Shown piece after piece: positions 31,534 through 37,856 of a DNA stretch of 64,000 nucleotides. The stretch covers positions 1,364,001 through 1,428,000 of the forward strand of contig JARKPB010000008.1 of NCBI GenBank assembly GCA_029975475.1. The letters are read 5' to 3'. The translations under genes and the position numbers were made by a program. Source of the DNA: Anaerolineaceae bacterium. GTDB taxonomy: Bacteria > Chloroflexota > Anaerolineae > Anaerolineales > Anaerolineaceae. The notes under the pieces were generated by a model, which was given only the letters and a program-made list of their open reading frames with translations, made no database searches and was not told the origin of the DNA. How positions within the stretch are numbered: position 1 is the first letter of the stretch; every line of letters begins with the position of its first letter.

Positions 31534-31604
31534 ATAACCCTCCAGATGGATTGATTACTCCATTGTAACAAATCCGTCAAATTTTCCAACCTGCCCGAAT
31601 TGGT

Positions 31605-31610
31605 TATAAT
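31605..31610 (+). promoter_or_regulatory. -10 box of the deoxynucleoside kinase gene
   Basis: TATAAT at 31605-31610 is consensus; the -35 region 17-18 bases upstream (TTTTCC) is weak. The site is in the 105-base gap between the divergent cyclase and kinase genes, 29 bases before the kinase start. Confidence 0.5.
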
Positions 31611-31638
31611 CAAAGCAATCCCTTCTGACGAGGTAGAT

Positions 31639-32274
31639 ATGGCCAAGAAACTTGTGCTGGTGGCGGGGAATATCGGAGCTGGCAAGACTTCATTGACCGA
31701 ACGGATCGGCGAAAGGCTGGGATGGCGCACGGCTTACGAATCAGTGGCAGACAACCCTTACCTGCCCGATTTTTACAACGATATGCGCCAGTGGTCCTTT
31801 CATTTGCAGGTTTTCTTCCTGGGTCATCGGGCCGAACAACATCTTGAAATGGCCCGTGATGCCCGTTCGGCGATTATTGACCGCAGTATTTACGAAGACG
31901 CGTATATCTTTGCCCGCGCCCTGCACCACCTGGGGAATATCAATGAACGCGATTACGACACCTACCGACAGTTGTTTCATCTGGTGGTGAAAACGTTACC
32001 CGCGCCGGATCTACTTATTTACCTGAATGCGCCAGTCGACACCCTGGTGCAGCGCATCCGGGCAAGGGGGCGCAGCATTGAAAATTCAATTTCCCCAGAA
32101 TATCTGCAGTTGCTGGATCGCTATTACACCGAGTGGATTGGGTCCTTCGACCTCTGCCCGGTGCTGACCATTCGCTCGGATGACCTTGATTTTGTGCATC
32201 AAACCAGGCATTTGAACACGGTGATCCAGCGGATTCAGGAAAAGCTGGCCGGTAAGGAAGAAATCGTCTTTTAA
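31639..32274 (+). CDS. Deoxynucleoside kinase
   Basis: The protein has 211 residues. Walker A VAGNIGAGKTSLTERI (about 8-23), the DRSIYEDAYIFARAL motif (Asp-Arg-Ser, base and sugar binding) and the lid region RIRARGRSIE match the dCK/dGK family (DGK-DAK type of Gram-positives). It phosphorylates deoxyadenosine or deoxyguanosine for salvage; the exact base cannot be told. Start ATG 31639 has GAGGT upstream; a longer reading from 31600 would begin inside the promoter. Confidence 0.9.
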   Translation: MAKKLVLVAGNIGAGKTSLTERIGERLGWRTAYESVADNPYLPDFYNDMRQWSFHLQVFFLGHRAEQHLEMARDARSAIIDRSIYEDAYIFARALHHLGNINERDYDTYRQLFHLVVKTLPAPDLLIYLNAPVDTLVQRIRARGRSIENSISPEYLQLLDRYYTEWIGSFDLCPVLTIRSDDLDFVHQTRHLNTVIQRIQEKLAGKEEIVF

Positions 32275-33348: not shown

Positions 33349-33501
33349 ACGCACTCCTGCGGGTCAAAGAATGTGCTGATTATACCCGCCCCGCTGCCCT
33401 GCCGCAATTCAGGCAATTTGACGAAAATGGGTCAAGATTTGCAACCTGAGGGACTGGTTTGCGTATATGATAGTGTAACCACAAGACCGCAGGAGTGATC
33501 T

Positions 33502-34098
33502 TTGATCAACCAGGAATTGGAGTGGATCCAGCAAGCCAGGATGGGAGACGAGCAGGCCTTTACCCTGCTGGTGGAACGATTCCAGTCCCCCGTTTACAAC
33601 CTGTGCTACCGCATGCTGGGCAACGAGCAGGAAGCAGAGGACGGCGCGCAGGAGACCTTCTGGCGCGCTTACCAGAATCTTCAGCGGTTCGATCCCCAGC
33701 GCTCCTTCATCACCTGGCTGTTATCCATCGCCGCTCACTACTGCATCGATGAGAGCCGAAAGCGCCGCGACAGCAACATTGATCTGGAATTGCTGCCCGA
33801 AGACAGCCTGACCGATCTGGCGCCGCTGCCGGAGAAACAGGCTGCCCTGAGCGAAGAGCAACGACTGCTGCGCGATCTGCTGGGCAGGCTCTCGCTCCAG
33901 GATCGTTCTGCGGTCATTCTTCGTTACTGGTATGACTTCTCGGAAGAAGAAATCGCCCGCAGCCTGTCCCTCACCGTGAGCGCGGTCAAAAGCCGCCTGC
34001 ACCGGGCCAGACTGCAGCTGGCGAAATCTTATCAAGAAGCGCAACCTGAGATTAATCTAAAGAAGGAAAGGATGCCCCATGAATCACCAGCATTTTGA
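33502..34098 (+). CDS. ECF-type RNA polymerase sigma factor
   Basis: The protein has 198 residues. Region 2 (DEQAFTLLVERFQSPVYNLCYRMLGNEQEAEDGAQETFWRAY; quoted in parts) includes YNLCYRMLG and AEDGAQETFWRAY, and region 4 includes LQDRSAVILRYWYDFSEEEIA and SAVKSRLHRARLQLAK. The start is TTG 33502, seven bases after AGGAG. The following anti-sigma gene overlaps by 20 bases. It should redirect RNA polymerase to envelope-related promoters, perhaps including its own operon. Confidence 0.93.
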   Translation: MINQELEWIQQARMGDEQAFTLLVERFQSPVYNLCYRMLGNEQEAEDGAQETFWRAYQNLQRFDPQRSFITWLLSIAAHYCIDESRKRRDSNIDLELLPEDSLTDLAPLPEKQAALSEEQRLLRDLLGRLSLQDRSAVILRYWYDFSEEEIARSLSLTVSAVKSRLHRARLQLAKSYQEAQPEINLKKERMPHESPAF

Positions 34099-34618
34099 AA
34101 CCTGGCTGCTTGATGAAGCAAACCTGACCGAGGATGAGCGAAAGTTGATGAACGAGCATCTGGCAGGATGCGAGGAATGCCAGATGATACAGCGGAACTG
34201 GGCTGCGGTTCAGGGTCTGATCCGCAGCGCCCCTGAGGCGCAGCCGCGGGCTGGTTTCACCACCCGCTGGCAGGCGAATCTGGAACATCGAAAGGAAGAG
34301 CAGGCTCACCGCCGTTCGCGGCAATTGATCTTCGCGATGATTGGTTCCGTTGCCCTGCTGCTTCTCATCTCCGGCGCGATCGCGCTAAACAATACCAGTC
34401 CTGTCGAGATTCTGGTTTCCATCATCCGCAGCATCACCCAGTGCGTCATCGGGCTGCAGCAGCTTCAAAAGGCGCTCTCGATCTGGCTGCGGATCGGGCT
34501 AAACGCCACCACGATGTCTCTGGGCTTAGCCCTGGCAGTCTGGTTAACTGCCTTTGGTCTGACCATTACAATTACTTATTTCCGAAACTGGAAAAAAGGA
34601 GGAATTACCATTCAATGA
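34079..34618 (+). CDS. Zinc-finger anti-sigma factor, membrane bound
   Basis: The protein has 179 residues. The N-terminal ZAS-type motif NEHLAGCEEC (His-x3-Cys-x2-Cys) binds zinc and the sigma factor; the first span is about residues 83-104 (LIFAMIGSVALLLLISGAIAL) and a second hydrophobic segment about 143-167. Such proteins hold the ECF factor at the membrane until a signal releases it. It overlaps the sigma gene by 20 bases and the next gene by 4 bases (ATGA). Confidence 0.9.
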   Translation: MNHQHFETWLLDEANLTEDERKLMNEHLAGCEECQMIQRNWAAVQGLIRSAPEAQPRAGFTTRWQANLEHRKEEQAHRRSRQLIFAMIGSVALLLLISGAIALNNTSPVEILVSIIRSITQCVIGLQQLQKALSIWLRIGLNATTMSLGLALAVWLTAFGLTITITYFRNWKKGGITIQ

Positions 34619-35772
34619 AAACAATTCGCGTATTTTTCTTCACGCTTCTGGCGCTTTCCCTGTTTGCGCTGCCCGCTTCAGTATTTGCTCAAACCGGCAC
34701 GCCGCAAGCGCCGTCAGGCAACCCGAACGATTACCAGATTGTCTCTGGGGATAAAGTCGTTACCGGGGGAGATTACCGCCTGGTCACCGGTCAGGCGATA
34801 GACGGCGATCTGGTGATTTTTGGTGGAAATGTGACCCTGGATGAAGGTTCAGCCGTCTTTGGCACAGTTACCGTTATGGGGGGAAATGCCAATCTGGCCG
34901 GTCTGGTAGAAAGCGATGTGACCCTGTTTGGCGGCACGTTGAACATCTCTGGCAAGGTGGAAGGGGATGTCAATGCGCTGGGCGGTTCCATTAACCTGCT
35001 GGACGGCACCGTGATCGCCGGCGATGTCAACGGGCTGGGCGTGGTGATCAACCAGAACGACAACGCCAAAATCCTCGGCAAAGTCAACACCGAAGACCCG
35101 GGGCAGGTGCGTCTCGATCTGCCGTCGTTCAAGAATTTCAAGTGGGCGACCAATATCCAGCGCGAGGACCGGCCGGCTTCCATCATTCTGAACGCGCTGC
35201 TTTCCGCTGTGCTGCTGGGCGGTCTTGCTTCCATCGTGATGTTGATCGCTCCCAAGCAGATCACCCGCACCGCTGGGACCATTGAAACCCAGCCGGGGAT
35301 GACCGCTCTGGTTGGCGTGCTCTCCAGCCTGGCTTTCCCGCTGGCAATCGTCATCCTGGTGCTGGTGATGATCACCATTATCCTGATCCCGGTCAGCGTC
35401 CTGGCCATCATCCTGCTCAGCCTGGCTTTCGCGGTGGCGGCAATCGGCGGATGGATCGCGATTGGTTATTATCTTGGAAACGCCTTTACCAAAGCCTCCA
35501 GCCTGACCTGGTCTCCGGCGGTCATCGCCGGGGTGGGCACGCTGACCCTGACCCTGTTTACCCGCATTCTCGATCTGGTTCCATGCTTTGGCCCTCTGGT
35601 TTCCGGATTGGCCTGGCTGTTTGGGATCGGCGCTGTGTTGTTGACCCTGTTCTCACCGCGCACAACCCCGCCGCAGCCGGCTCCGGTTGGCGGCCCGCTT
35701 CCGCCGGCTTTCAACCCGCCGGCCGCGCCGCAGGCGCCCAGGCAGGAACCGCCGGTTCCGCCGGCCCAGTAA
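34615..35772 (+). CDS. Exported bactofilin-like / polymer-forming membrane protein
   Basis: The protein has 385 residues. A signal peptide (MKTIRVFFFTLLALSLF, cleaved after VFA) is followed by a beta-helix region with repeats such as DGDLVIFGGNVTLDEGSAV, LFGGTLNISGKVEGDVNALG, characteristic of polymer-forming bactofilin-like domains. Four hydrophobic segments between 190 and 310 and a Pro-rich tail (QPAPVGGPLPPAFNPPAAP) follow. Function unknown; as the last gene of the sigma/anti-sigma operon it is probably a target or sensor of the envelope response. ATG 34615 is chosen for the signal peptide; a longer in-frame start (34441) lies inside the anti-sigma gene. Confidence 0.82.
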   Translation: MKTIRVFFFTLLALSLFALPASVFAQTGTPQAPSGNPNDYQIVSGDKVVTGGDYRLVTGQAIDGDLVIFGGNVTLDEGSAVFGTVTVMGGNANLAGLVESDVTLFGGTLNISGKVEGDVNALGGSINLLDGTVIAGDVNGLGVVINQNDNAKILGKVNTEDPGQVRLDLPSFKNFKWATNIQREDRPASIILNALLSAVLLGGLASIVMLIAPKQITRTAGTIETQPGMTALVGVLSSLAFPLAIVILVLVMITIILIPVSVLAIILLSLAFAVAAIGGWIAIGYYLGNAFTKASSLTWSPAVIAGVGTLTLTLFTRILDLVPCFGPLVSGLAWLFGIGAVLLTLFSPRTTPPQPAPVGGPLPPAFNPPAAPQAPRQEPPVPPAQ

Positions 35773-35787
35773 CAGATTTACGCAAGT

Positions 35788-35817
35788 GGTGGGCGGGCGA
35801 ACCGCCCACCCTTTTTT
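35788..35817 (+). terminator. Intrinsic terminator inside the ECF locus
   Basis: GGTGGGCGG (35788-35796) and CCGCCCACC (35802-35810) around a 5-base loop, followed by CTTTTTT. It lies between the bactofilin-like gene and the lipoprotein gene and ends just before the latter's ribosome site, so it could end the operon or act as a partial attenuator. Confidence 0.82.
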
Positions 35818-35826
35818 GGAGGGAAC

Positions 35827-36669
35827 ATGTCTCGAAAAATCCTTTTCTCCGCTTTGATCTGCGCGCTGATCCTGAGCGCCTGCACCCTGACCTTTACCGT
35901 CCCGGCCACGAAAACCGGCGAAGTACGGGAGTTCAACATCAGTGAACCAAAACTGGAGAACGAGCCCGCCAGTGTAGAAATCAAAATGGGCGGGGGAACG
36001 CTGAATATCCGCAGCGGCGGCAGCCAATTGATTGAGGGAACTGTCCGGTATAACGTGGCGGAATGGGAGCCAAGAATTGAACGCACAGAGCGCGCTTTGA
36101 CCATTACCCAGGGGGACGCGGGTCTGGCCGTGCCGAACTTTGATGTGGTCAACCAGTGGGAATTGACCCTGGGGACCCAACCGGTGGATTTGAAGATCAG
36201 CGCTGGCGGTTATAAAGGCAAACTGGACTTTGGGGGCGCCTCCCTCACCCGCCTCGAAATCAATGACGGCGCAAGCAATTCAAGCGTTGATTTCAGCCAG
36301 CCGAACCTGAGCCCGATGGATAAACTGGTTTACGCCACCGGCGCGTCAACGGTAAAACTGCTCAATCTCTCCAACGCGCGGGCGAAAAATATCGAATTTT
36401 CCAGCGGCGCGGGTTCTTATCAACTGGCGTTCGGCCCGGACCTGATCCAGGATACCCGCGTTAAAATTTCCAGCGGTGCCAGCGAAGTCCGGCTGAGCCT
36501 GCCAAAAAATGCCACTATTCGCGTGCGGTTTCCCGGAGGGATCAGCAACATTGACGCCCGGGGCAGCTGGTCGGTGAACGACGGGGTATACAGTTATGAC
36601 GGGGGCGGAAAAACCCTGGAAGTCGAGATTGACATGGTTGTCGGCAGCGTGATCCTGGAACGAGAATGA
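35827..36669 (+). CDS. Envelope lipoprotein with toast-rack (DUF2154/LiaF-like) fold
   Basis: The protein has 280 residues. A lipoprotein signal ends in the lipobox LSAC (Cys19). The rest is all-beta: repeated glycine-rich strands such as IKMGGGTLNIRSGGSQLI, KISSGASEVRLSLP and a C-terminal glutamate-ended strand, resembling the toast-rack domains of cell-wall-active antibiotic-response proteins (N-terminal DUF2154 and C-terminal DUF2807-like). Extracytoplasmic lipid-anchored protein, likely part of the same envelope-stress group. GGAGGGAAC precedes ATG 35827. Confidence 0.75.
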   Translation: MSRKILFSALICALILSACTLTFTVPATKTGEVREFNISEPKLENEPASVEIKMGGGTLNIRSGGSQLIEGTVRYNVAEWEPRIERTERALTITQGDAGLAVPNFDVVNQWELTLGTQPVDLKISAGGYKGKLDFGGASLTRLEINDGASNSSVDFSQPNLSPMDKLVYATGASTVKLLNLSNARAKNIEFSSGAGSYQLAFGPDLIQDTRVKISSGASEVRLSLPKNATIRVRFPGGISNIDARGSWSVNDGVYSYDGGGKTLEVEIDMVVGSVILERE

Positions 36670-36688
36670 CGATCCGATAACCCGGTGG

Positions 36689-36716
36689 AGCCCCTTCTAA
36701 AGAAGGGGCTTTTTTT
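36689..36716 (+). terminator. Intrinsic terminator after the lipoprotein gene
   Basis: AGCCCCTTC (36689-36697), TAAA loop, GAAGGGGCT (36702-36710) and a run of six T's: a textbook factor-independent terminator. Confidence 0.92.
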
Positions 36717-36755: not shown

Positions 36756-37856
36756 ATGAACGACCGAACCTCAATTCTCCATTCAACCCCCGCGCCGCTC
36801 ATCAGCGTAAAAGGGAACCACCGCCAGATCGGGCAGCAGATCGGCGAGGCAGCCCGTGAACAGGTCCGGCACTCGATAGAAAATGCCCGCGCTCTGATCA
36901 GTTCTGCCTATGACCAGCTGCAGCTCAACTGGGAAGGCACGACCATCCAGGCGCAAAAATATCTGCCCTTCGCCCAGGAAAGATACCCCCAGTATGTCGA
37001 AGAAATGATCGGGATGGCGGAAGGCGCCGGGGTTAAATTTGACGATCTCGTGGTGATCAACGCGATGGAAGCGGTCACATCTGACGCGCTGCACCTGACC
37101 AAATGCACCAGCCTGGCGGTGAATGAACAGCACACCAGCTCCGGGCATGTGCTGGTGGCGCACAATGAAGACTGGCTGCCCGAAGATGAAACGGATGTGT
37201 TGATCATTCAGGCGCGGCTGGATGATGAACCGCCCTGGCTGGCGATGACCTACGGGGGACTGCTTCCGAACATTGGTCTGAACGCGCACGGAATTGCCCA
37301 GTGCTGCGATTCGGTATACCCGACGGATATCCGTATTGGAATTCCGCGCATCATTGTGTCCAGAGCGGTGCTGGCAGCCCAGACGCCAGGTCAGGCAATC
37401 CGCCGCACGCTGGTCCCCCTGCGCGCCGCGGGATACAACCACCTGCTGGCGCATGAATCCGGCGAGCTCTACAGCGTGGAAGTGTCAGCGCGCAACTTCG
37501 CCGTCCTTTACGGAGAGGACGGCTACATGGTGCACACCAATCATTTCCTCGATCCGCGCATGCAGACCCTGGAAGATGAGCCAGACGAATTGATCGCCAC
37601 GCGCGTGCGCTACCACCGCGCAAAACGCCTGCTGACGGGCAACCCGCAGCATTCGATCCTGACGCTGCAGGCCATCATGCGCGATCACGTCAATTATCCC
37701 GATTCAATCTGCAATCACGCCATTGAAGACGACGACCCGCTGGATCGCGAAAAAACGATCAACAGCCTGGTGATGGATTTGACCGAACGCATCATGTACG
37801 TCGCCTGGGGCAACCCCTGCAAGAACGGTTATCACGCTTATCAACTGGAAGGTTGA
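36756..37856 (+). CDS. C45-family peptidase / acyltransferase-like protein
   Basis: The protein has 366 residues of the N-terminal-nucleophile fold. The motif KCTSLAV (Cys117) corresponds to the autocleavage point and nucleophile of the C45 family (acyl-CoA:6-aminopenicillanate acyltransferase relatives), followed by HNEDWLPEDE and SGELYSVEVSA. The preceding GNHRQIGQQIGEAAREQV is also typical. Members hydrolyse or transfer acyl groups on amides; the true substrate is unknown and beta-lactam synthesis should not be inferred. No signal peptide. It stands alone between terminators. Confidence 0.85.
   Translation: MNDRTSILHSTPAPLISVKGNHRQIGQQIGEAAREQVRHSIENARALISSAYDQLQLNWEGTTIQAQKYLPFAQERYPQYVEEMIGMAEGAGVKFDDLVVINAMEAVTSDALHLTKCTSLAVNEQHTSSGHVLVAHNEDWLPEDETDVLIIQARLDDEPPWLAMTYGGLLPNIGLNAHGIAQCCDSVYPTDIRIGIPRIIVSRAVLAAQTPGQAIRRTLVPLRAAGYNHLLAHESGELYSVEVSARNFAVLYGEDGYMVHTNHFLDPRMQTLEDEPDELIATRVRYHRAKRLLTGNPQHSILTLQAIMRDHVNYPDSICNHAIEDDDPLDREKTINSLVMDLTERIMYVAWGNPCKNGYHAYQLEG

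Follow-up and report, generated by a model that had tools for sequence, protein, structure and literature searches.

In Bacillus subtilis, yvlABCD and pspA are SigW dependent (PMC3498285); the SigW regulon thereby includes pspA as well as yvlABCD, which encodes one protein with DUF4097 and one PspC protein (PMC3498285 and PMC9239133). In the main text of Ravi et al. 2024 (PMC11237479), combinations of toast-rack, LiaI-LiaF-TM, and PspC have been proposed to lead to a transcriptional output, including through an operonic sigma factor. We analyzed a 64,000-nt stretch of DNA (the window) from an Anaerolineaceae bacterium (GCA_029975475.1, contig JARKPB010000008.1, positions 1,364,001-1,428,000 of the forward strand), which carries a module of genes for an extracytoplasmic function (ECF) sigma factor, a zinc-finger membrane anti-sigma factor, and an exported protein with a predicted bactofilin fold. 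As in the toastrack-centered, PspA-free neighborhoods of PMC11237479, toast-rack, LiaF-TM, and PspC combinations would here be tied to a sigma factor, whereas no bactofilin-fold partner was met in the relevant passages of that paper, the main text of which uses the words "polymer-forming" and "bactofilin" 0 times. A literature search found no publication on the module; subscription papers and supplements lay outside its scope, which leaves absence in print unproven. The analysis, computational throughout, points to an ECF sigma system of Chloroflexota that is autoregulated, responds to envelope stress, and drives a PspA-poor Psp/Lia-type regulon, with a probability of about 0.65. Gene content, conservation, gene overlaps, the promoter motif, and its occurrence at PspC genes were computed directly. 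New here is the predicted SigW-type motif at the sigma gene, at PspC genes across the order, and at a PspC/LiaF/toast-rack operon of the same genome.

The sigma factor gene (33502..34098, + strand, TTG start, 198 aa) encodes a protein with Sigma70_r2 (1.4e-19) and r4_2 (8.5e-16) domains and no further sigma region listed, which is the composition of an ECF sigma factor. Its top NCBIfam match is SigW, although the score of 138.2 bits against a cut-off of 209 places it outside the SigW equivalog. The SigW consensus consists of a TGAAAC-type -35 and a CGTA-type -10 element, and a predicted autopromoter of this type (TGCAAC-N16-CGTA, 33440..33465, + strand) lies 36 bases 5' of the sigma start codon. 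The module further differs from SigW/RsiW of B. subtilis in its third gene (34615..35772, + strand, 385 aa), which encodes the exported bactofilin-fold beta-helix followed by a multi-helix membrane C terminus.

Between the two lies the anti-sigma gene (34079..34618, + strand, 179 aa), which overlaps the sigma gene by 20 nt and the third gene by 4 nt. The protein has an HxxxCxxC motif and 2-3 hydrophobic segments, and its zf-HC2 match (3.5e-4, 21.1 bits) falls slightly below the Pfam cut-off of 22.2. HxxxCxxC is also found in 149 of 174 anti-sigma frames examined, which is the unbiased figure, since the anti-sigma alignment took only motif-bearing loci and the zinc finger is invariant there by construction. 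The motif, the membrane helix, and the neighboring sigma gene together indicate an anti-sigma factor of the zinc-binding (ZAS) class, with sigma binding as a predicted property. Hydropathy gives 2 or 3 hydrophobic segments in 160/174 relatives, and the structure model (mean predicted local distance difference test score [pLDDT] of 89.1, predicted template modeling score [pTM] of only 0.40) presents short N-terminal helices and long membrane helices. In both, a sizeable soluble extracytoplasmic domain is absent, which makes a partner protein plausible as the sensor.

These genes, their overlaps of 20 and 4 bases, and a toast-rack lipoprotein gene behind them had been proposed in a sequence-only reading of the stretch. 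All four open reading frames were found where it had placed them, the sigma and anti-sigma assignments hold on the domain and motif evidence above even with zf-HC2 just under its cut-off, and the order of sigma, anti-sigma, and beta-helix genes recurs beyond chance. Counting the window's own, 123 of the 151 order genomes have a homologue of the third protein, the profile of which matches 101/201 genomes of the phylum. The order set comprised loci from 100 of the 122 other genomes plus the window (101 loci; the remaining 22 gave mostly weak or partial matches), with neighboring genes recognized by profiles built from the order loci. Sigma, anti-sigma, and third gene stand together in 89/101 loci; 2 have a sigma without a recognized anti-sigma, and 10 have no recognized sigma adjacent, 2 of these at contig edges. 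Among named Chloroflexota loci (the best 80 of 154), the triad is present in 77, and the other 3 are cut by contig ends. The titles of this second set all name Chloroflexi or Chloroflexota, Anaerolineae-type taxa, or genera of Chloroflexota, and the set shares genomes with the order set, so that the two are not independent. Locus L302 of Ornatilinea apprima, a cultured representative of the class, also has the triad. Many genomes are metagenome assemblies, and congeneric genomes are likewise not independent.

Outside the order, 20 class or phylum loci chosen from 84 profile-matching genomes all have a sigma gene upstream, 18 directly by the locus rule and 2 behind an interposed toast-rack gene, with a profile-recognized anti-sigma in only 8 (L338 and L342 among them). 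The anti-sigma and third genes overlap by exactly 4 nt in 52/90 order and 57/78 named loci, and the sigma and anti-sigma genes overlap in 68/69 and 70/72 of those that could be judged. The sigma, anti-sigma, and beta-helix genes are one conserved module in Chloroflexota. Variants of the sigma gene arrangement were also seen. A second ECF sigma gene lies immediately 3' of the third gene in 11/101 loci, all of family f9 (L033, L036, L046, L061, L069, L079, L082, L085, L086, L099, and L129). In G061 (L064:5936-6387), a sigma-like N terminus seems to continue, 5' of the third gene, into a membrane segment that resembles the anti-sigma, as though an internal part had been lost; this could be an assembly artifact.

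The autopromoter motif recurs with the module. In its strict form (TG[AC]AAC-N15..17-CGT[AC]), it was found 5' of the sigma gene in 53/85 order loci, 49/73 named loci, and 7/18 distant loci, against shuffled means of 0.21, 0.17, and 0.06, respectively, the shuffling having retained single-base composition only. Among control open frames of 200 codons or more from the order loci, whether or not they are real genes, 5/1031 carry it. Directly 5' of beta-helix genes without a recognized sigma, the strict motif was found in 0/10 and a relaxed form in 2/10; two of these ten genes (L338 and L342) have a sigma farther upstream. The sigma gene is preceded by a SigW-type promoter motif, reported here for the first time, and autoregulation is predicted from it.

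The same motif is found in front of envelope genes elsewhere. In the window's own genome, 63 bases separate the end of a site (G000:C3:181810-181835) from the first ATG of an operon of five genes. Their products are, in order, a LiaF-TM-like protein, a LiaF-TM protein whose Toast_rack_N match is sub-threshold, a membrane protein that matches nothing in Pfam, PspC, and another LiaF-TM protein; the operon contains the only PspC match of this genome. Four other TGCAAC-N15..17-CGTA sites are present there, and both of those examined fall in long open frames. PspC, picked from the target list, was searched in 81 genomes of the order and gave 104 matches in 60 genomes. Of 49 genes examined (the first 30 listed and 19 farther down), 48 could be oriented and one, in L233, was not located. 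The relaxed motif lies upstream of 30/48 (0.43 shuffled) and the strict motif upstream of 18/48 (0.10 shuffled). This suggests that PspC and LiaF/toast-rack genes are predicted members of a regulon under the module's sigma.

Within the window's family, the 18 genomes that carry the module hold 117 TGCAACY-N15..16-CGTA sites against 65 for a backward control, with an excess in 13/18, whereas the seven genomes without it (six of genus g6, plus G155) hold 10 against 18. G155, which is 98% complete and of the same genus as G027, G053, and G089, lacks both the module and the motif at its PspC gene, while its three congeners have both; it is a single case. Genus g4 has TGAAAC-N16-CGTA at two PspC genes and no match at one (G040), and this variant may explain the missing TGCAAC excess there.

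Several observations weigh against a module sigma that drives such a regulon. The own genome has 6 TGCAAC-N15..17-CGTA matches against 5 in the backward control and thus no bulk excess; TGCAACY-N15..16-CGTA occurs 388 times over 81 order genomes against 433 in the control, and 261 against 350 in the 56 genomes outside the window's family. A wide regulon is therefore not supported outside that family, where the PspC genes are the sole support, and a large TGCAAC regulon throughout the order is likewise not supported. Even within the family, 5/18 carriers have no excess. Only 3/30 DUF2807 genes have the motif, for which reason DUF2807 was rejected as a general target. Eight order loci that are not at contig edges, of which seven belong to family f13 and one (L064) to f11, have the beta-helix gene but no recognized adjacent sigma, so that it may work without the switch there; upstream genes were read for seven of the eight, and L064 retains a sigma-like fragment. 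Finally, the own genome holds 9 sigma-70 region-2 genes, so a different ECF could read the motif.

This last point opens an alternative in which the module is real and autoregulated but serves another stress, the motif at PspC and LiaF genes being read by a different ECF sigma. ECF promoters are similar among themselves, and the lack of a genome-wide excess outside the window's family would fit such a case. It is less easily reconciled with the joint absence of module and PspC-gene motif in G155, or with the contrast between carriers and module-less members of the family, and we regard it as decidedly unlikely.

The breadth of the predicted regulon was read from 40 stretches with 41 TGCAACY-N15..16-CGTA sites, comprising all nonmodule sites of G027, G053, and G089, the 2 nonmodule sites that G000 has under this pattern, and further sites picked by eye as strong (8/9 in G064, 6/11 in G013, 2/7 in G113, 3/16 in G164, and 2/11 in G172). 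Five of the 41 lie within long open frames. The first downstream genes include PspC, DUF2807, DUF4870, DUF2085, YccF, a phage-holin-family protein, and AIM24. A site of G013 is followed by a PspC gene, after which comes a LiaF-TM protein that matches toast-rack weakly. Other first genes (DinB, flavodoxin, ABC transporter, and unknown) have no obvious envelope theme. The complete site sets of the three congeners yield PspC three times, DUF2807 three times, DUF2085 three times, a 75-79-aa membrane protein three times, and DUF4870 twice, with some DUF2085, DUF4870, and membrane-protein copies identified by look-alike sequence only. The sequence-only reading had proposed a compact envelope-stress system. 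That PspC, LiaF-TM/toast-rack, DUF2807, and further membrane proteins make up the predicted regulon backs the envelope-stress part, but since this regulon extends beyond the locus, the response is probably not confined to it.

The predicted targets resemble the SigW regulon in that PspC, toast-rack, and a phage-holin-family protein, which we liken to YvlD, are among them. PspA, by which a Psp response is recognized, sets the two apart: none was found in the own genome at E of ≤1e-10, and it is present in only 3/81 order genomes, which removed it from the candidate targets. By analogy, the module's predicted regulon would be comparable to the yvlABCD/pspA part of the SigW regulon, though in an order nearly devoid of PspA, and the switch itself is built from different parts.

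The third protein matches Pfam Bactofilin (PF04519) with an E value of 0.16 and 12.7 bits against a cut-off of 27.9, and by sequence it lies outside the family; 22 of the 36 members of its family alignment match at E of ≤0.1. A sequence search of solved structures with this alignment gave four matches, none below an E value of 0.1. The AlphaFold2 model (68 sequences; mean pLDDT of 80.3 and pTM of 0.60) contains a beta-helix at about residues 41-160, with block means of 86-97, and six helices in residues 187-346. Foldseek E values were not significant, the best being 0.02 for a fusolisin protease, with 6rib_A at 0.25 (probability 0.99). VIA-align, the rows of which span mainly residues 23-167, superimposed the model on the Thermus bactofilin filament (6rib_A) with a Z of 15.2 and a root mean square deviation (rmsd) of 1.4 over 98 residues, and on BacA (2n3d) with a Z of 13.6 and an rmsd of 1.9 over 101 residues. 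Other beta-helices reach a Z of 10-14, so that the bactofilin match is the best yet not isolated. The modeled protein has the bactofilin beta-helix fold, with filament formation as a predicted property only. It differs from bactofilins in its sub-cut-off score, its membrane C terminus, and its signal-peptide-like start, which was judged by eye in the window protein and in the relatives listed, and which should locate the beta-helix outside the membrane; the bactofilins known to us are cytoplasmic. An exported polymer-forming-like protein, as previously proposed, agrees with this fold and start, while the four spans then assigned to it were an approximation beside the six modeled helices. A second Bactofilin-like protein (470 aa, L191:796-2205, under the Pfam cut-off) is encoded by the second gene after a motif site in G064, and in several genomes further long open frames partially match the third-protein profile.

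We infer that the module's sigma may read the motif and that signal, release, and third protein may be connected as follows. In the resting state, the cytoplasmic zinc-finger domain of the membrane anti-sigma would hold the sigma factor, which envelope damage would free. The freed sigma would transcribe its own operon plus envelope genes from TGCAAC/TGAAAC-N16-CGTA promoters, with PspC and LiaF-TM/toast-rack genes as proposed targets and, in the window's family, also DUF2807, DUF4870, and others. The third protein, translationally coupled to the anti-sigma, would display its beta-helix on the membrane's outer face, and in the reading that we prefer, it would act with the anti-sigma as the half of the switch that faces the envelope. 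That its gene is closely linked and coupled to the gene of an anti-sigma without an outer domain favors such a co-regulator. The persistence of the third gene without a recognized sigma in the eight order loci favors an effector, and the protein could be that purely, an exported envelope scaffold under feedback, with the anti-sigma sensing through its membrane helices alone. Bactofilins are structural polymers and the other predicted targets are likewise envelope proteins, but those targets vary, whereas the third gene is seldom apart from the sigma and anti-sigma pair and mostly shares the 4-nt overlap; we give a pure effector somewhat less than even odds. Both roles may also be combined. In the most specific form of the co-regulator, Chloroflexota would sense envelope damage by way of an exported bactofilin-fold polymer, anchored in the membrane and paired stoichiometrically with the anti-sigma; whether it assembles or is disrupted on the outside would set the activity of sigma, with a PspA-free Psp/Lia response as output. 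This is a tentative and rather doubtful proposal.

The fourth gene of the window (35827..36669, + strand, 280 aa) encodes a lipoprotein, its lipobox judged by eye, with a Toast_rack_N match (2.2e-13, 50.7 bits against a cut-off of 22) that places it in Toast_rack (DUF2154), as the earlier assignment had it. A terminator-like hairpin with a T-run (36687..36712, + strand) closes the four-gene unit. The sequence-only reading had tied its proposal to co-conservation of the genes in Chloroflexota relatives. The neighborhood survey bears this out strongly for the first three, whereas a toast-rack gene adjoins the module in only 8/101 order and 16/80 named loci. In the window's family, 14/18 of the genomes that bear the module and were checked have it beside the module. 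A Toast_rack_N protein sits between anti-sigma and third gene at two more distant loci, L338 from another family of the class and L342 from another class of the phylum; both of these proteins also match LiaF-like_C, above the cut-off only in L338. The toast-rack gene, adjacent in some lineages and placed within the unit itself in two families far from the window's, is a lineage-dependent, recurrent, and nonobligatory fourth member. Alternatively, it could be an ordinary neighbor with a separate transcript beyond a terminator and no relation to the sigma unit. A hairpin with a T-run is indeed present at 35788..35810 (+ strand), where an internal terminator had been noted, and no downstream toast-rack gene was found in 93/101 order loci. 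However, the hairpin is not conserved in relatives: of 24 loci with an adjacent toast-rack gene, only 4 have a structure below -15 kcal/mol within 60 bases 3' of the third gene and 20 do not, and a conserved attenuator or terminator between genes three and four was rejected. With the family adjacency and the two insertions also against it, an ordinary neighbor is very improbable.

A C45/AAT-family acyltransferase or hydrolase gene (36756-37856, + strand) comes after the four-gene unit, and such a gene is also found 3' of the third gene in 14/100 other order loci, all of family f12 (e.g., L034 and L095). Upstream, a deoxynucleoside-kinase gene (31600-32274) is separated from the unit by galT; in three genus g3 relatives (L042, L058, and L071), it is directly upstream.

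For Chloroflexota, a large and barely studied phylum, the module would provide a concrete envelope-stress circuit with a promoter motif and a target list. It would place a cytoskeleton fold outside the membrane as the fixed partner of a sigma switch, and it indicates how a Psp-like response may operate almost without PspA.

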